From positions 1-37,678 of the forward strand of contig CAJACZ010000019.1 of NCBI GenBank assembly GCA_903938365.1: a stretch of 37,678 nt of DNA, written 5' to 3'. The notes beneath the pieces are model-generated. The model did no database searches, had not been told where the DNA came from, and was given only the letters and a program-made list of their open reading frames with translations. Shown piece by piece: positions 9,079 through 30,202 of this stretch. Position 1 is the first letter of the stretch. The number at the start of each line of letters is the position of its first letter. The position numbers and the translations under genes were made by a program. Source of the stretch: an uncultured Pseudomonadota bacterium (lineage in GTDB: Bacteria; Pseudomonadota; Gammaproteobacteria; Steroidobacterales; Steroidobacteraceae).

Positions 9079-9975
9079 TCATTTCTTTGGCGTGGCCGGC
9101 GGGACCTTCTTCTTGAAGTAGGTCCAGCTGGTCTCGTTCTCGCGCGTGTCGTCGCCCGGGGGCGGCGTGCGGTACTCGGGGTAGGTCGTCTCGACCGCGC
9201 GCAGGATGACGGGCGGCAACTGCTCGAAGCTGTCCAGCTTCCGGCCGGCCGCGTGGATGTAGATCATCCCGGCCCGATCGCCCATTTCCATCCAGGGCAG
9301 CCAGCTGGCGAGGCGTACCCAGCCCACCTGGACGGCGGGGTTGAGGTTCTTCGGGTCGACCATTTCGTCGATGTTGCCGAAGAAGTTGAACATCTCGGTC
9401 GCGTGGTAAGTGCCGCCGACGTACTTCTGGTAATCGCCACCCAGCGGGTTGGTGTAGAAGAGCGGAACCGTCAGCGTGTTCCACCAGGTCTTGCCGCTGA
9501 TGGTGCCGTTCCACGTCGCAGGCTTGCCATCGGCGCCGTAGGGGAACGACGGGCGCTGGTTCACCGGATCGTTGGCGGTCTGCAGGACGTTGACCGTCTG
9601 GTTGGTCCACGGATTGGTCCAGGTGCGCAGCAGTTCGCCGGTCACCGGGTCCGTGTAGAGCAGCAGTTCGCGGGAGACCAGCCGCCAGCCCGTCCCGCGC
9701 TTCTCGTCCTTCACGGTGACGCAGGTGCGGACGTTCATGCCCTCGACGTTGAACAGCTTGCGGTCGCGTTCGCCGGGCACGCGGCTGAAGCCCTCGCCGT
9801 GGAACCAGTACACGGTGGGTTCGCCGTCCTTCATGGAGCACTGGGTCTTGCGCCCGGCGATGCTGGCGCCTTCGGGCGTCTTGAGGTCCACGGTCTTCGC
9901 AGCGTGTGCGGCCGATGCGCCCAGGGCCAGCAGCGAGGCCGTCAGGGCGGTGCGTAGCGAGAGAGTGAGTGTCAT
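9079..9975 (-). CDS. DUF1838 domain-containing secreted protein
   Basis: Signal peptide (LTASLLALGASAAHA); GTGWRLVSRELLLYTDPVTGELLRTWTNPWT is characteristic of DUF1838. Confidence 0.85.
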   Translation of the reverse strand: MTLTLSLRTALTASLLALGASAAHAAKTVDLKTPEGASIAGRKTQCSMKDGEPTVYWFHGEGFSRVPGERDRKLFNVEGMNVRTCVTVKDEKRGTGWRLVSRELLLYTDPVTGELLRTWTNPWTNQTVNVLQTANDPVNQRPSFPYGADGKPATWNGTISGKTWWNTLTVPLFYTNPLGGDYQKYVGGTYHATEMFNFFGNIDEMVDPKNLNPAVQVGWVRLASWLPWMEMGDRAGMIYIHAAGRKLDSFEQLPPVILRAVETTYPEYRTPPPGDDTRENETSWTYFKKKVPPATPKK

Positions 9976-10011
9976 CGGGTTTCTCCAGGTGCCGGTGTGC
10001 TTCAGCCAAAG

Positions 10012-10029
10012 ATCATATCATCATGATGA
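10012..10029 (-). promoter_or_regulatory. Candidate -10 box (TATGAT) with adjoining perfect palindrome TCATCATGATGA
   Basis: 12-bp perfect palindrome at 10018-10029 directly upstream of TATGAT (minus, 10012-10017), about 40 bp before the 9975 start codon; AT-rich island in GC-rich DNA. Confidence 0.4.
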
Positions 10030-10066
10030 ATTTCCGGTGCCCCTGCGGGCATCGGCGGTCGTCCGC

Positions 10067-10423
10067 TCAGGGCCGCCGGATGGGCTGCATGTGCCGATCG
10101 ACCTCCGGGTGGATCTGCGAGACCGGCACGCGATCGCGCACGAGTTCCGACATCACCCGCTGCGTGAACGCGGCCAGGTCATCGGCGCGGGCCTGTGCCT
10201 GGCCGGGGTCGTCCTGGTGGTTTTCGACCGCGTCCACCGGCAGCACCCGCCGCGAGGTGAGCTCGGCTTCGAGCGCGGCGAGGCGCTCCCGCAGCAGGTA
10301 GACCTCGGCCGTGAGCGCGACGATCGCGCCGACCGCGTTGTCCATCGGCAGCGCGCCGAGGAAGTCAGGCTCGACGGCCTTCACCGGGCCCTGGAGGGCG
10401 GCGTGGAATGTTTTCTCGTTCAT
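10067..10423 (-). CDS. Hypothetical protein (118 aa) translationally coupled to a methyltransferase
   Basis: MNEKTFHAALQGPVKAVEPDFLGALPMDNAVGAIVALTAEVYLLRERLAALEAEL; ATGA overlap with the stop of the preceding gene. Confidence 0.75.
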   Translation of the reverse strand: MNEKTFHAALQGPVKAVEPDFLGALPMDNAVGAIVALTAEVYLLRERLAALEAELTSRRVLPVDAVENHQDDPGQAQARADDLAAFTQRVMSELVRDRVPVSQIHPEVDRHMQPIRRP

Positions 10424-11553
10424 TTTTCGAAGACGTAGAGGTTCCAGTAGTTGGCATTGATCGGCGCCCGGCCCGGTCGCTTGACCGAACGGTTGAGCCG
10501 TTCGAAAGGCTCGATGCTGACCTTCGAGAATCCTGCCTCGCGCGCCAGTTCGCCGATCGGGGTCTCGTACCACGGGGTCGAGTAGGTCTCGTTGTTCGTC
10601 CAGGCATGGCTGCGCTGCAGCACGTTCTGGAACGGATCGCCTGGCCGCAGGTGGAACTCGTGCCCGGCGAACAGGCCGCCGGGCCTGAGCACGCGGCAGG
10701 CCTCGGCGAGCAGCGCCGGCGTGTGCGCGGGGGCGAGCTCGTGCAGCATGAAATTGAAGAACACCAGGTCGAAGCTGTTGTCCGGATAGTCGAGGTGTTC
10801 GAGGTCCTGCTGCGACAGGAAGAACCGGTAGCCGCGTTCGCGCGCGCGCTGGTTCGCCAGCAGCAGGCAGGGCGCCGACAGGTCGACGCCGTGGCACTCG
10901 GATTCCGGGTGCGACTCCTGCCAGGTCATCAGCGCGGCGCCGTGGCCGGTCCCCCAGTCGAGCACGCGCGCGTAGTCACGCTTCGGCAGGGTCTCGAACA
11001 GGATCCGGTAGATGCCGTTCGGATCGGCGTGGGCGGGTACGGTGGTGCGCCGGCCGATCTCGTAGGCCACGCCGTCGAGGATGTCCTTGGCGACGCCGCC
11101 GGTGTGCTGGTGGAACGGCACGTGGCGGAAATACTCCGGGAGCTCCAGCTGCGGGTCGAGCCGCAGCTGCGCGGGCGGCGTGGCGGCGGCCGTGGCCTCG
11201 AGCTGCGCGGCCAGCGTCGCGCGCTGGGCCTCGAGCAGGGCGAAGATGCCGAGCGAGGAACGGTGGTACTTGAACCGCTGCAGGTTGCGGTACGCCCAGC
11301 AGTAGAACTGGAACTCGGTGAGCCCGTCGAGGACGGCCTCGGCGGCGCGCCAGTCCGCCGGCGGCCCCGCAGCGCCGGGGGCTTCGAGGGCGCGTTCGTA
11401 GGCGTCATGCATCTGCCCGACCAGCGGCCCCTCCATGTAGTTGCGCGCGGCGCGCAGGAAGGCGTGGTAGCTGCGGAAGTCGCGGCTTTCGCGCACCGTG
11501 AGGGGCGCGGCCGGCGGAGTTCCGGGATCGAGCGGCTGGAGGGCGGCGTTCAT
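10420..11553 (-). CDS. Class I SAM-dependent methyltransferase
   Basis: Start MNAALQPLDPG; ARVLDWGTGHGAALMTW (motif I), FDLVFFNFMLHEL, EACRVLRPGGLFAGHEFH. Confidence 0.88.
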   Translation of the reverse strand: MNAALQPLDPGTPPAAPLTVRESRDFRSYHAFLRAARNYMEGPLVGQMHDAYERALEAPGAAGPPADWRAAEAVLDGLTEFQFYCWAYRNLQRFKYHRSSLGIFALLEAQRATLAAQLEATAAATPPAQLRLDPQLELPEYFRHVPFHQHTGGVAKDILDGVAYEIGRRTTVPAHADPNGIYRILFETLPKRDYARVLDWGTGHGAALMTWQESHPESECHGVDLSAPCLLLANQRARERGYRFFLSQQDLEHLDYPDNSFDLVFFNFMLHELAPAHTPALLAEACRVLRPGGLFAGHEFHLRPGDPFQNVLQRSHAWTNNETYSTPWYETPIGELAREAGFSKVSIEPFERLNRSVKRPGRAPINANYWNLYVFEK

Positions 11554-22901: not shown

Positions 22902-24104
22902 ATGATGCAACATAGTGTCCTCAAGTCGGCAGCGCTGGCGCTGTCGACCGCTCTCCTGAGCGCGTGCTCCCTGATGCAGGCCACGCAGCCTGTGCAGCCG
23001 GTCGTGGCCCTGCCGCCGCCGCCGCCGCCCCTGCCGGTACCGACGGCGAACCATCGCTTCGAGATCGACTCCGAAAAAGACGACCTCATCGGCGTCCTGC
23101 AGGTCACGCTCGCGCGCCAGGAAGACACCCTCACCGATATCGCCCGCCGCTTCAACGTCGGCTACGAAGAACTGGTGCGCGCGAATCCCAAGGTCGATCC
23201 CTGGCTGCCGGGCGAGGGACGCGAGATCGTGATCCCCACCCGTCAGATCCTGCCCAACGCGCCTCGCGAGGGCATCGTGATCAACACCGCGGCCATGCGG
23301 CTGTATTACTTCCCGAAGCGGCAGTCGGGCCAGAAGCAGGTGGTGTACACACACCCCATCGGCATCGGCAAAGTCGGCTGGGCGACGCCCGAGGGGTCGA
23401 CCCGGATCGTGCGCAAGGCGAAGAACCCGACCTGGCGTCCCGGGGCGGGCGTGCGCGCCGAACACAAGAAGAACGGCGAGATCCTTCCTGCAGTCGTGCC
23501 GCCCGGACCCGACAACCCGCTGGGCACGCGCGCCATGTACCTCGGCTGGCCGACCTACCTCATCCACGGCACCAACAAACCGGCGGGGGTCGGGCTGCGC
23601 TCCAGCCATGGCTGCATCCGGCTCTACCCCGAAGACGTCGAGTCCATCTTCGAGATGATCCAGGCGGGCGAGAAGGTGACCGTGGTCAACCAGCCCTTCG
23701 TGTTCGGCTGGCATGACGGCCAGCTGTACCTGCAGGCCTTCGATGTGCTGGAGGACGATCCGCGCGACTGGAAGAAGGCGCAGCAGAAACTCCTGTCACG
23801 CTCGCTGGCCCGCCGCATCCAGGCCGAACTGAAGGCGCGTGGCGAGACGGTCAACTGGGATGCCGTGTCGCTGCTGGCCCATGATCCCCGCGGCGTGCCG
23901 GTGCCGATCTCCCTGCCCGGTGTATCGATCGAGTCCGTGCTCGCCGCCGCGCCCCGGGTGCGCAACAGCCTGCCGAGGGGCGCGACCTGGAACGGCGAGG
24001 GCGACGTCGGGATGGACAACACCAGCCTGCGGGAACTGCTCTCCGACAGCGACCCGCAGGCGCCGACGAGTCCGGCTGCCCGCGGCGCCCCGACCCGGAA
24101 CTGA
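22902..24104 (+). CDS. L,D-transpeptidase (YkuD/ErfK family), predicted lipoprotein with a LysM-like N-terminal segment
   Basis: Lipobox LLSAC; DTLTDIARRFNVGYEELVRANPKVDPWLPGEGREIVIP; active site HGTNKPAGVGLRSSHGCIRLYPEDVE. Confidence 0.94.
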   Translation: MMQHSVLKSAALALSTALLSACSLMQATQPVQPVVALPPPPPPLPVPTANHRFEIDSEKDDLIGVLQVTLARQEDTLTDIARRFNVGYEELVRANPKVDPWLPGEGREIVIPTRQILPNAPREGIVINTAAMRLYYFPKRQSGQKQVVYTHPIGIGKVGWATPEGSTRIVRKAKNPTWRPGAGVRAEHKKNGEILPAVVPPGPDNPLGTRAMYLGWPTYLIHGTNKPAGVGLRSSHGCIRLYPEDVESIFEMIQAGEKVTVVNQPFVFGWHDGQLYLQAFDVLEDDPRDWKKAQQKLLSRSLARRIQAELKARGETVNWDAVSLLAHDPRGVPVPISLPGVSIESVLAAAPRVRNSLPRGATWNGEGDVGMDNTSLRELLSDSDPQAPTSPAARGAPTRN

Positions 24105-24174
24105 TCCGCATGGATTGCGCGTCCCCCGCCACTGTCGCAGCGGCCGCCATCGGGCGGGGCGGGACGTCGCCATC

Positions 24175-24870
24175 GTGATTCCCGTCCGCGACGACAATCC
24201 CGCGCAGCTGCGCCCCTATGTCACCGGCGTGATCGCCGCCGCGTGCGTGGTGGCTTTCCTGTGGCAGGTGTCCTCGGGCAGCGCGCATTTCGAGCGCAGC
24301 GTGCTGGCGCTGGGCGTGACTCCGGCCGTCCTGCTCGAGGGCGCGCAGGCGCCGCAGCAGCTGGCCTGGTTGCCGGGCTGGGCCACGGTCGTCACTTCCA
24401 TGTTCCTGCACGGCGGCTTCGGCCACCTGCTGGGCAACCTGCTGTTCCTCTGGGTCTTCGGCAACAACGTCGAGGACGCGATGGGTCATGCGCGATTCGT
24501 CGCGTTCTACCTGTTGTGCGGTGTGGCTGCCGTGCTTGCCCAGGCATTGCCCGATCCTTCGGCGCGGTTGCCGATGGTGGGCGCGAGCGGCGCCATATCG
24601 GGAGTGCTCGGTGCTTACCTGCTCTTGTTCCCGTCCGCGCGTGTCCTGCTCGCGCTGCCGCCGCCGTTCATCTTCATCACGATCGGCTGGTTCCGCGCCG
24701 TCTGGGTGCTGGCGCTGTGGTTCGTGTTGCAGTTGCTGATGGGCCTGGGCGAGGCGGATCGCGCGGGCGGCGGCGTGGCCTTCGGCGCCCATGTCGGCGG
24801 GTTCCTCGCCGGTCTGCTGCTGATTCCGCTGTTCAAGCAGCCGGGAGTGCCGTTGTGGCGCAATCATTGA
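24175..24870 (+). CDS. Rhomboid family intramembrane serine protease
   Basis: GTG start (VIPVRDDNPAQLRPYVTGVI); HGGFGHLLGNLLFLWVFGNNVED; catalytic GASGAISG; AHVGGFLAGLL. Confidence 0.92.
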   Translation: MIPVRDDNPAQLRPYVTGVIAAACVVAFLWQVSSGSAHFERSVLALGVTPAVLLEGAQAPQQLAWLPGWATVVTSMFLHGGFGHLLGNLLFLWVFGNNVEDAMGHARFVAFYLLCGVAAVLAQALPDPSARLPMVGASGAISGVLGAYLLLFPSARVLLALPPPFIFITIGWFRAVWVLALWFVLQLLMGLGEADRAGGGVAFGAHVGGFLAGLLLIPLFKQPGVPLWRNH

Positions 24871-24938: not shown

Positions 24939-26579
24939 ATGGCGGAAGCAGTCTCCTCCGGAATCCAGCTTGCCGAGCACAACGGCCCTGACAACGCGAT
25001 CGCGCGCGCGCCGACCGATGTCACGGCTTTCGTCGGCCGCAGCCTCAAGGGTCCGGTTGGCGTGCCGGTCGCCGTCTCCAGTTTCGCCGAGTACCAGAAG
25101 GCATTTGGCGGGCTGTGGCAGCCGGCCCCGATGTCCTACGCGATCGAGCAGTTCTTCGACAACGGCGGGCGCTCGGCGCTCGTCGTGCGCGTCATCAACT
25201 GCGGGCGACCGCCGTCCATTTCGCTGCCCGCCGAAGGTGGTGGTGTGCTAACGCTGGTCGGGCTGGCGCCGGGTTCGCGGGAGCACCTTCGCGCCTCGGT
25301 CGACTACGACGGCATCGGTGCAGCGGAGACGGACCGGTTCAACCTCGTGGTCCAGCGCATGGGCGGGGCGGGTGCCGGCCTCTCCGGCTCGGGCCTCATC
25401 GAAGAGCAGGAAATCTTCCGCCGCGTGTCCGTGAACACCGAAGACGCGCACTTCATCGGCGACGCCCTCCTCGATTCGCATCTGGTCCGGCTCTCCGGAG
25501 CGGCCCCCGTGCGGCGCCCCGCGCTGCCGCCGCCCGCTGCGCCGGGGCTCGCGATCGGATACGTCGCCACCAATAACGACGGCGACGATGGCGCCGAGCT
25601 CACCGATTACGACGTCATCGGTTCCGCCCAGGCGTGCACTGGCCTGTTCGCGCTGTCGGCCTTGCCGTTCAACCTGCTGTGCGTGCCGCCACTCGGGCGC
25701 GACCAGGATGTCGGCGCCAGCACCCTGCTGGTGGCGGCGCGTTTCTGCCGTGAACGGCAGGCTACCCTGGTGGTCGATCCGCCGCGCGAATGGCAGTCCG
25801 CGGCCCAGGCGCTAGAGGGCATCCGGAACTGGCCGTTCCGCTCCGACGCCGCGCTGATGTACTTCCCGCGCCTCGTGGCCTTCGACCGGCTGCGCGGCAA
25901 GGACGAGGTGTTCGCCGGCTCCGGCGCGGTGGCCGGCATGCTGGCCAGGTTCGACGAGAGCTCCTCGCCCTGGCGGGCCGCGCTGCCCGACCAGCCGCAG
26001 CTGCGCCCCCGCTTGCGTCCTGCCTGCGAGGTCGACGATGCCGATCGGCAACGGCTGCTGCAGTCCGGGATCAACGTGCTGCGCACCGCGCGCGGCGCAT
26101 CGCGCGAAGTCGCTGGAGCGCGGACCCTGGCTTCCGGCAATTCGCTGGCCACGGACTGGCGCTACCTCGCGCCGCGCAGGCTCGCGCAGTTCATCGTGCA
26201 GTCGGTGGAGCAGGGCACCCGCTGGACCGTGTTCGCCCAGAAGGGGCCGCACACCTGGAGGCGGGTGCGCGGGCAGGTCGAGGCCTTCCTCGAGGCGCTG
26301 GACCAGGAAGGGGCCTTCCCGGGGGAGGTCTCCCAGGAGCGCTACTTCGTGTTCTGTGACGAACGCATCAACGCCCCGGGGGCGGATGCGGAATCACGGC
26401 TCAGCCTGCTGGTGGGTTTCGCTGCGTCGCGCCCGGGCGAGTTCCACGCGTTCGTGGTGACGCAGCGCGCGAGCGGCAGTGCCGTGCGCAGTGTCTCGGT
26501 CAACCGCATGGCCACCTCGGGCGCGCGGGTCTCCGAGGAAATCGAGGCCGCGATCCTTCGCGGGCTCACCGCGCCCTAA
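24939..26579 (+). CDS. Phage-type contractile tail sheath protein
   Basis: N-terminal APTDVTAFVGRSLKGPVGVPVAVSSFAEYQKAFGG...MSYAIEQFFDNGGRSALVVRV and C-terminal SGINVLRTARG...GARTLAS...WRYLAPRRLAQFIVQSVEQGTRWTVFAQKGPHTWRRVRGQVEAFLEALDQEGAFPG...YFVFCDERIN match the conserved layout of phage/eCIS sheath proteins. Confidence 0.88.
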   Translation: MAEAVSSGIQLAEHNGPDNAIARAPTDVTAFVGRSLKGPVGVPVAVSSFAEYQKAFGGLWQPAPMSYAIEQFFDNGGRSALVVRVINCGRPPSISLPAEGGGVLTLVGLAPGSREHLRASVDYDGIGAAETDRFNLVVQRMGGAGAGLSGSGLIEEQEIFRRVSVNTEDAHFIGDALLDSHLVRLSGAAPVRRPALPPPAAPGLAIGYVATNNDGDDGAELTDYDVIGSAQACTGLFALSALPFNLLCVPPLGRDQDVGASTLLVAARFCRERQATLVVDPPREWQSAAQALEGIRNWPFRSDAALMYFPRLVAFDRLRGKDEVFAGSGAVAGMLARFDESSSPWRAALPDQPQLRPRLRPACEVDDADRQRLLQSGINVLRTARGASREVAGARTLASGNSLATDWRYLAPRRLAQFIVQSVEQGTRWTVFAQKGPHTWRRVRGQVEAFLEALDQEGAFPGEVSQERYFVFCDERINAPGADAESRLSLLVGFAASRPGEFHAFVVTQRASGSAVRSVSVNRMATSGARVSEEIEAAILRGLTAP

Positions 26580-29500
26580 GCCGGGCGCTCCGGCGGGGCC
26601 CCGTGGCCGCCGCCCCCCGGCGTCAGGATCTCGAGCTGGTCGCCCGCGCCCAGATCGAAGCCCGCGCTGGCCGGCAGCGTCTCGACCGACCCGTCGCTGC
26701 GCAGGATCCGCGTGATGCCCGCCGCGCCAGGGCCGCCCCCCGCCAGCCCGAAAGCCTGCGTGCTGCGGCGGTTCGCCAGGATGGCGCCGTGCAGCGGGGC
26801 GAGGAACTCGAGGCGCCGCAGCGCGCCATCGCCGCCGCGCTGCCGGCCCGGACCTCCTGAGCCGCGACGGATGGAAAACTCCCGCAGTCGTACCGGAAAC
26901 CGTGACTCGAGGATCTCGGGATCGGTGAGCCGGGAATTGGTCATGTGGGTCTGTACCGCATCGCAGCCCGGAAAGCCCGGTCCCGCGCCCGAGCCACCCG
27001 CGATGGTCTCGTAGTACTGCAGCGTCGCGTCGCCGAAGGTGAGGTTGTTCATCGTGCCCTGCGAGGCCGCGAGCAGGCCGAGCGCGCCGTACAGCACGTC
27101 GACGATCATCTGCGAGGTCTCGACGTTGCCCGCGACCACCGCAGCGCCGACGGGCGGATCCAGCAGCGAGCCCGCGGGCACCACGATGTCGAGCGGCCGG
27201 AGGCAGCCTTCGTTCAGCGGAATCGGACGCTCGACCAGGGTGCGGAACACGTAGAGAACCGCGGCGAGGGTCACGGCGCGCGGCGCGTTGAAGTTGTGCG
27301 CTCCCGCCGGTGAAGTGCCGCTGAAATCGATGCGGGCGCGACGCAGGCGTGCATCCAGTTCGATGCGCACCGCGATGCGCTGGCCACCATCCAGTGTCGT
27401 CGCGAAGGCTGCGCTGCGATCGCCCAGTCGCGCGATGGCCGCCTCGACGCAGTCCGCGGCATTGTCCTGCACGGCGCGCATCGCGGCCGTGATGCGCGCC
27501 GCGCCATGCTCCGCGGCCGCCCGCAGCAGTTCCTCGGCGCCGCGGGCGTTGGCCGCGAGCTGGGCGCGCAGGTCCGCGAGGTTCTGCCCCGCGTTGCGCG
27601 CGGGCCATGGGCCCGCGGCCAGCGCTGCCCGCAGCGCCGCTTCGCGCAGCTGGCCCCCGGCGACCAGCTCGAAGTCCTCGAACACAGCGCCTTCCTGGTC
27701 GAGCCGCGTGCTGAAGGGCGGCATGGATCCGGGCGTGATGCCGCCGATGTCGGCGTGGTGTGCGCGTGAGGCGACGAAGAAAGCCGGTGCCGTGCCCGAC
27801 GGCGTGAATACGGGGCTCACGACCGTGATGTCCGGAAGGTGGGTGCCGCCGTTCGCGGGATCATTGACCAGCCACGCATCGCCGCGCTGCATCCTGCCGC
27901 GGCGCGTGCGCAGCAGTGCCTTCACCGTGGCGCCCATCGACCCGAGGTGTACCGGCATGTGTGGCGCGTTGGCGACCAGTCCGCCTTCGGCGTCGAAGAG
28001 GGCGCAGGAGAAATCCAGGCGCTCCTTGATGTTCACCGACTGCGCCGTGCGCCTCAGCACTTCGCCCATCTGGGTGGCGATGTGCATGAACAGGCCGTCG
28101 TGGATCTCCACCTGGGACGGGTCGGAGACGTCGGGTCGCGCCGCCACGCCCGCGGTGTCCGCGATCCGTTCGGCCAGCAGCGCGCCGTCGCCCGCGGGTC
28201 CGATGCGCCAGCCGGGTTCGAGCACGAAGGTCGAGTGCGGTTCCACCAGCAGCGCGGGACCTTCGAGCGTGGCCTGCAGCAGTCGTGCATCGTGCACGGG
28301 GACGTCCCGCCAGCCGCCGAACCAGGCCCGCGTGCTGCGCGGCGGACTGGCGTCGGGGCGGCCCGGCACCGCGCCCGACTCGATCCGCCAGCGCGGTGCG
28401 GCGGTCGTGCCGCCGCCCCGTGCCCCGGCCGCGACGCGAGCCTCCACGCGTACCGCCGCCACCTGCAGGCGGTCCAGCGCCGGCGCATAACCGAAACGCC
28501 GCAGGTGCTCCGTGGCAAAGGCGCCGCGCAGCGCCTCCGGCGAATCCCCCTGGATGTCCAGGCTGGTTTCCGCGTGACCTTCCCGCAGTTCGAGCAGCGT
28601 AGTCACCGTCATCGCGGCCGTCGGCGTTCCCGGCTCCTGGTCGGCCAGCGCGGCGCAGGCCTGCGCGGCCAGGTCCGCAGCCAGCCGGCCTGCGGCCTGC
28701 CACCCTGCGGCGTCGAGCGGGACACCCAGGCCGCGGCGCCGCACCTCGATCCGGTCCGCGACGCCGATGCCAAAGGCGGAGAGGACGCTGGCGAGCGGAT
28801 GCACCAGCACGCGATCCACACCGCAGGCCTGCGCCACCCGGCAGGCGTGCTGGCCTGCGGCACCGCCGAAGGCGAGCAGCGTGAACCCGGTGGGGTCGAT
28901 GCCCTGCCTCACGCTCACATGGCGGATGGCGTTGGCCATCGCGGCCACGGCCACGTCGAGGAAGCCGGCGGCCAGGGTTTCGGGCGCCACGGCGTCGTCG
29001 AGCGCCGCCAGCGCGACTGCTGCGGCCTGCGGATCGATCGGCGCGTCGCGGCCCGGACCGAAGACGCGCGGCATCGAGTCGGGACTGAGTCGCCCGAGCA
29101 GGACCTGCACATCGGTGAGCGTGGCGGGGCCACCGCGGCCATAGCAGGCGGGCCCGGGGTCGGCGCCGGCGGAACCCGGCCCGACCCGGCAGCGTCCGTC
29201 GTGCAGGGCGAGGATCGAGCCGCCGCCGGCCGCGATCGTGTGCACGTCGAGCATGGGCGTGGTGATGCGGGCGCCGGCGATCTCGTGTTCGAAGCGCCGC
29301 TCGAAGGCGCCGTCATGGACCGAGACATCGGTCGAGGTGCCGCCCATGTCGAAGCCGATCAGCCGCCGGAGCCCCGCGGATTCCCCGAGCCTCGCCATGC
29401 CGATCAGGCCACCTGCGGGGCCGGACAGCACGCTTGCCAGCGCGCGGAACCGGCTCGCGCCCGTCAGGCCGCCCGAACTCTGCATGAAGTCGAGTCGCGC

Positions 29501-30202
29501 CCCGGGCGCGTCGCGGACCAGCTGCAGGGCGAGGCCATCGACGAAGCCGCGCAGGGCGGTCGCCAGGTAGGACTCGAAGACCGTGCTGTCGCCGCGCGGC
29601 ACGAAGCGGGGCAGCGGCAGGCACTGGTGCGAGCACGTCACCTGCGCAAAGCCCGTCGCGTCGGCCACGGCGGCGATGGCCGACTCGTGTGCGGTGTGGC
29701 GCCAGCCGTGCATCAGCAGGATAGCGACCGACTCCAGCCCGTCGTCGCGTGCCCGACGCAGCGCCTGCCCGATCACGGCGAGGTCCGGCTCTGCGAGTAC
29801 CGTGCCGTCCGCATCGATCCGTTCGTCCACCTCGAGCACGCGTTCGAAGAGCGGCGGCGGTCGCTGGATGTGGAGAGCGAACAGGTCGGGCCGGGACTGG
29901 TTCCCGATCAGCAGTGCGTCACCGAAGCCCCGCGTGGTGACCAGCAGCACCCGGCTGCCGCGCCGTTCGAGCAGGGCGTTGGTCGCCACGGTGGTGCCCA
30001 CCTTGAAATGCGCCGCCCCCGCCGCGGGTACGCCGGCTTCGCGCAGCATGTCGAAGGCGGCTTCGAGCCCCGGGTCGGTCGTGCCTGCCGATGCCTGCCC
30101 GGAGGGCACCTTGCGCAGCACCAGGCGCCCGTCGGGCGCAGCACCGATGACATCCGTGAAGGTGCCACCCCTGTCGATCCAGAATTGCCATGCACCGCCC
30201 AT
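26576..30202 (-). CDS. Hydantoinase/5-oxoprolinase family protein, fused A and B domains (1208 aa)
   Basis: [41 protein letters not shown]; second half [81 protein letters not shown]. Confidence 0.95.

Follow-up and report, generated by a model that had tools for sequence, protein, structure and literature searches.

The window analysed here is the whole of a 37,678-nucleotide contig (C19) from the draft genome of an uncultured member of the Steroidobacteraceae (G000; 3.59 Mb, 359 contigs, 99.4% complete), and it encodes, at positions 24939-26579 (+), a solitary homologue of contractile tail sheaths of 546 aa. Contractile sheaths are known from phage tails, the type VI secretion system and extracellular contractile injection systems (eCIS), in which a sheath is accompanied by its tube and baseplate. 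On balance, we favour the reading that an injection-machine sheath was domesticated throughout a whole bacterial order, becoming a core cellular protein that does not contract, has acquired a new binding surface and does without a tube. The rival explanations are, in falling order of probability, a filament with altered contacts, a decoy directed at phages or contractile injection systems (CIS), a cryptic system supplied in trans, and decay. No report of a conserved tube-less or orphan sheath was found in the open-access literature that we searched.

A sheath homologue without a machine

The open reading frame (ORF) has no internal stops. Its product matched the PHROG_23 tail sheath profile over residues 1-511 (6.9e-33) and the solved Streptomyces CIS sheath 8bky by sequence (1.9e-34), the latter match rising to 2.1e-55 in a family profile search. 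Matches to Pfam Phage_sheath_1 (5.6e-6) and Phage_sheath_1C (3e-4) were both under Pfam's cut-offs, and searches of NCBIfam and PADLOC with the protein gave no match. The protein was modelled with AlphaFold2 (AF2) from an alignment of itself, one orthologue (L032) and 37 sheaths from the viral collection, leaving out the solitary orthologues from our genome search. The model showed a confident fold (predicted local distance difference test, pLDDT, 85.4; predicted template modelling score, pTM, 0.82), for which the top Foldseek match was the CIS sheath 9ezm (1.5e-28); among the matches listed there were only sheaths. Homology over the conserved sheath domains and predicted fold both place the protein in the sheath family, as proposed in a first-pass annotation made from the sequence alone. 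The base composition of the gene (GC 0.706; GC at third codon positions 0.87) is ordinary for the window (GC 0.694).

Only housekeeping genes were found beside the sheath. No tube, baseplate, spike, cap or ATPase genes of an eCIS or CIS cluster adjoin it, and no phage structural, packaging or integration genes were found near the sheath, in agreement with the first-pass statement that the 37.7 kb contain no phage or injection-system partners. Searches of G000 found no second sheath, no match to the Phage_T4_gp19 tube (PF06841), and none to GPW_gp25, Phage_base_V or Pvc16_N. The eCIS ATPase query recovered no full ATPase, its matches being confined to the AAA core in two unrelated hits to other proteins. 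We also considered an overlooked tube belonging to the sister type of eCIS described below, and rejected it because searching G000 with that tube itself returned none. As a positive control, the PF06841 query found the eCIS of four relatives (G041, G053, G065 and G067) at 1e-34 to 1e-43. Among the 59 relatives that carry an orthologue of the solitary sheath, tube matches were obtained in 4 (G041, G053, G065 and a weak fragment in G081) and none in 55/59. The eCIS clusters of G041, G053, G065 and G067 bear their own sheaths, which share only about 30% identity with the window protein.

These results bear on the possibility, also raised in the first-pass annotation, that the protein is supplied in trans to a contractile machine and still works as its sheath, the tube and baseplate being encoded at a remote place in the genome and too divergent for detection. 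A draft in 359 contigs searched with sequence profiles leaves some room for such a machine. We nevertheless regard it as very improbable: none of the five partners (tube, gp25, base_V, Pvc16 and eCIS ATPase) was found in G000 while the tube profile was strong in relatives' eCIS, 55/59 carriers have no tube, the true eCIS of the carriers G041, G053 and G065 have sheaths of their own, and the tube-facing wall of the solitary sheath is relaxed. Separately, a 4205-base contig of G020, a sheath-less genome of the same genus as the window genome, carries a short tube gene that runs straight into a Pvc16_N gene with no adjoining sheath (L086; G020:C8, 2964-3908); this piece is either an eCIS remnant or a stray contig.

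Conservation, loss and selection across the order

To place the gene among its relatives, 98 genomes were compared: 36 from other genera of the family, 24 from the same genus and 38 from other families of the order. A single-copy orthologue was present in 59/98, namely in all 36 genomes from other genera of the family, in 2/24 from the same genus and in 21/38 from other families; two further genomes had other kinds of sheath only. One orthologue, 49% identical, was found in a gammaproteobacterial metagenome-assembled genome (JAGWPU010000102.1). The sheath is thus a conserved gene over much of an order and no local oddity. In the fetched neighbourhoods the orthologues are placed among housekeeping genes, and synteny with a LysM + YkuD L,D-transpeptidase (22902-24104, +, in the window), which in 23/33 loci is encoded on the same strand and precedes the sheath by no more than four genes, spans at least four families.

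Loss from most of the window's own genus is clean. In 12 sheath-less genomes of this genus the locus is still recognisable, with the sheath gone and the L,D-transpeptidase kept; at some of these loci the L,D-transpeptidase and a rhomboid protease directly abut an oxoprolinase, and others also lack the rhomboid or the oxoprolinase. The sheath-less genomes of the genus are small (1.4-2.8 Mb), yet some small genomes of other genera retain the sheath. Co-loss of the sheath and the L,D-transpeptidase was considered as a sign of a functional link and was not seen, the transpeptidase being kept in sheath-less congeners. The association is positional, and shared inheritance alone may account for it.

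The solitary sheath is a working protein under purifying selection. The ratio of nonsynonymous to synonymous substitution rates (dN/dS, NG86 method) in three close pairs was 0.068, 0.188 and 0.184 at 93%, 87% and 84% identity, respectively. Five close pairs pooled gave 0.17, with values of 0.11-0.27 per region throughout. Across 26 members about 70 residues are invariant, and almost every carrier, over many families, has an uninterrupted ORF of full length. Three orthologues (G048:C354, G062:C59 and G097:C23) each have a single in-frame TGA and are either recent pseudogenes or sequencing errors. A decaying relic without function would fit these three stops and the absence of the gene from most genomes of its own genus, but it is extremely improbable given a dN/dS of about 0.07-0.19, the open, full-length frames and the invariant residues. 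The dN/dS values likewise give no support to the isolated relic suggested in the first-pass annotation.

Descent from an injection-system sheath

Beyond the order, full-length relatives of the same sheath subfamily occupy eCIS clusters. The gene order of these sister eCIS is small protein, sheath, tube, T4_baseplate-like zinc protein, a further protein, Pvc16/DUF4255-like protein, AAA ATPase and DUF4157-type protein; the parts were named by eye in these loci, and a Streptomyces plasmid has an annotated cluster with matching gene order. In a tree of 79 sheaths (IQ-TREE, LG+C20 with posterior mean site frequencies, PMSF), 35 solitary sheaths form one clade (support 100/100, stem 0.59) nested among sheaths of sister-type eCIS. 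Most family groups are recovered inside this clade, which fits the expectation of vertical descent. We prefer a single loss of the tube because it is simpler than the gain of a tube by several clusters. Up to rooting and sampling, the tree shows a single domestication followed by vertical, single-copy inheritance.

A phage or prophage origin was rejected; six phage records match the window protein, over only 38% of its length and at 27-29% identity. Four IMG/VR relatives classed as viral (L073-L076) were likewise discarded as evidence for a phage origin, their sheath and tube being of the eCIS type. In two of them, L073 and L074, Zot-like (inovirus-type) genes share a contig with a sheath and tube from an eCIS, so classing the contig as viral is no proof that its sheath belongs to a phage.

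Other sheaths without a tube were noted in the same survey. The sheath at L054 (G079:C3, 9130-10608, +) is a second lone sheath, with no tube nearby, in a genome that also carries a solitary orthologue; it branches among eCIS-A sheaths, apart from the solitary clade, and is a separate case. The sheath at L134 (G583:C22, 8733-10963, -), which branches close to the base of the eCIS-A clade, may be a further orphan of independent origin: it has no tube and adjoins an AAA ATPase fragment of 201 aa. Related sheaths with no nearby tube at L064 (G074, 9387-10919, -) and L066 (G067:C210, 4353-5771, -) belong to a distant clade and are perhaps a second orphan lineage.

Lattice-building surfaces have lost family-wide conservation

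In contractile sheaths a handshake is formed when a two-stranded sheet in domain I of the next ring takes up the N-terminal arm of one subunit together with the C-terminal arm of the adjacent subunit (PMC11915804, PMC10457771), and an attachment helix in domain I touches the tube (PMC8894135). We compared conservation between 15 solitary sheaths of the family and 15 sister eCIS sheaths, with mean identities of 0.54 and 0.57, respectively, defining the arms and inner wall as residues 1-24 and 405-511. In the sister eCIS sheaths these are the most conserved parts (entropy 0.45 vs 1.41 elsewhere). In the solitary sheaths the pattern is reversed, with an entropy of 1.52 in the arms and inner wall vs 1.15 elsewhere (Mann-Whitney p 5e-5). 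The usual pattern, with lower entropy in the arms and inner wall, holds for other sheaths, taken from phages and additional eCIS (1.70 vs 2.18).

The same shift is seen region by region when positions at least 85% conserved in eCIS sheaths are followed into the solitary clade. The equivalent of the N-terminal handshake arm (residues 1-24; 24939-25010, +) keeps 1/16 of these positions; in the window protein it has a pLDDT of 44-58 and the canonical YPGVYxEE motif is lost. Residues 346-404 (25974-26150, +), which hold the arm-accepting two-stranded hairpin in canonical sheaths, keep 5/31. Conservation across the family is also lost in residues 405-511 (26151-26471, +), comprising the tube-facing C-terminal part of domain I and the C-arm: 5/23 positions are kept in 405-436, 3/17 in the long helix and 2/19 in the C-arm, where the AEFVVIKIQQ motif is eroded in the window protein. 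By comparison, residues 25-210 (25011-25568, +), with the motifs GRxLxGP, FGGLWQPSxLSYA, PG[ST]RExLR, DYD and FNLVVQR, are conserved in the alignment, 17/26 positions being kept in the N-terminal core and 10/13 in domain III; domain II (residues 211-345; 25569-25973, +), with DGDDGxxLTDYDxIGS, keeps 21/39. Alignment and model also reveal a new C-terminal extension without an eCIS counterpart (residues 512-546; 26472-26576, +), consisting of a GSxVRPVSVNR strand followed in some members by a helix.

The AF2 models agree with this picture. In a control model of the sister sheath L073, strands 388-394 and 398-402 lie in blocks of pLDDT 93-96, and we read them as the acceptor hairpin. Equivalent strands were not predicted for the window protein, in which pLDDT falls below 50 at residues 386-391. 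The N- and C-terminal hallmarks that the first-pass annotation had credited to the protein are not retained. What these alignments show to be lost is the family-wide identity of the lattice-building surfaces, i.e. the N-arm, C-arm, hairpin and tube-facing wall.

A sheath that still polymerised on its own would form tubules (polysheath) serving as a cytoplasmic filament or scaffold. The retained fold and the purifying selection that still acts on the C-terminal core are compatible with such tubules, but the N-arm, C-arm and acceptor hairpin, which connect subunits in known sheaths, have lost family-wide conservation and the hairpin is unpredicted in the window protein. The filament role put forward in the first-pass annotation is disfavoured because family-wide conservation has gone from the arms, from the acceptor hairpin and from the tube-facing wall, and we consider it unlikely.

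A putative non-contractile role

We propose that a gammaproteobacterial eCIS lost its tube and baseplate a single time, close to the ancestor of the order, and that its sheath gene was kept. The source cluster would have had the layout small protein - sheath - tube - T4_baseplate-like - Pvc16/DUF4255 - AAA ATPase - DUF4157. After this loss the sheath would have gained a job that needs its fold, chiefly the N-terminal core and domains II/III, and not the lattice. Its product may now be a cytoplasmic, non-contractile monomer or small oligomer in which the conserved N-terminal core and domains II/III act as a binding or scaffold module, no longer powering injection. The gene has since been passed on vertically as a single-copy chromosomal locus, with clean loss from most of the window's own genus. 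A single domestication that gave rise to a non-contractile former sheath, serving as a putative cytoplasmic binding or scaffold protein, is in our judgement probable. The domesticated orphan sheath of the first-pass annotation is strongly supported by orthology across the order, the single clade, purifying selection and the housekeeping locus, and is further backed by the absence of a tube in 55/59 carriers.

Several points weigh against this proposal. The tree is unrooted, and the branch linking the solitary clade to its closest eCIS sheaths is weak (93/76). In close pairs the C-terminal core has a dN/dS of 0.18 vs 0.17 in domain III and is thus no higher; it follows that the core is undecayed and still constrained lineage by lineage, and the lattice contacts could have been rebuilt instead of lost. 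The partner searches used sequence profiles on a draft genome, the AF2 models are of monomers, the domain boundaries are our own reading of alignment and secondary structure, and the only pointer to a cytoplasmic location is the lack of an obvious signal peptide.

A sheath homologue that lacks its own machine could also act as a decoy, a poison subunit that disturbs incoming CIS or the tails of contractile phages during infection; a capped subunit might halt a growing sheath. This explanation appears improbable. The gene is single-copy at a fixed housekeeping locus across the order, whereas defence genes typically reside in variable islands, PADLOC gave no match to an anti-phage defence family, and the arms needed for entry into a foreign lattice are eroded. 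Under domestication, constraint has shifted from the lattice and tube surfaces to other domains, and the solitary clade offers a natural test of what the sheath fold can do without contraction. For genome annotation, a sheath match alone may flag a CIS or prophage in genomes that bear neither.

Neighbouring genes

Upstream of the sheath, on the same strand, lie in order genes for a LemA-like protein, two TPM-like proteins (LemA-like and TPM-like names assigned by eye), the L,D-transpeptidase and the rhomboid-family protease. The rhomboid gene (24115-24870, +) is directly upstream, with a 68-base gap, and is not at this place in all relatives. The convergent downstream gene (26576-30202, -) encodes a 5-oxoprolinase/hydantoinase A+B and overlaps the sheath gene by 4 bases. 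Both flanks had been correctly named in the first-pass annotation. A promoter and terminator scan gave nothing informative. An envelope-related role is the first possibility suggested by the lasting position of the sheath downstream of the LysM-YkuD L,D-transpeptidase, although this position does not establish one.

Comparison with known systems

The nearest known systems in the tree are the eCIS with Pvc16/DUF4255, AAA ATPase and DUF4157 genes (L128-L137; IMG/VR L073-L076), which share the sheath subfamily and whose gene order is also annotated on the Streptomyces europaeiscabiei plasmid NZ_CP109155.1. Their sheaths are 31-38% identical to the window protein over nearly the full length. In these clusters tube, baseplate-like, Pvc16-like and ATPase genes follow the sheath, whereas the window sheath stands alone; likewise, conservation in their sheaths is highest in the arms and inner wall, where it is lowest in the solitary ones. 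The best solved matches, by both sequence and fold, are the Streptomyces coelicolor CIS sheath Cis2 (8bky) and the sheath of the Halogeometricum borinquense CIS (9ezm). Both belong to complete contractile machines, the Streptomyces CIS being cytoplasmic (PMC10066040), whereas the window protein does not. The sheaths of PVC/Afp, AlgoCIS and R-pyocins have domains I and II of the fold in common with the window protein, at lower scores; they possess a handshake lattice and a tube, whereas the window protein has lost conservation of those surfaces. A precedent, likened by description only, is a virion component that goes by the name of tail sheath although its role is binding and not contraction.
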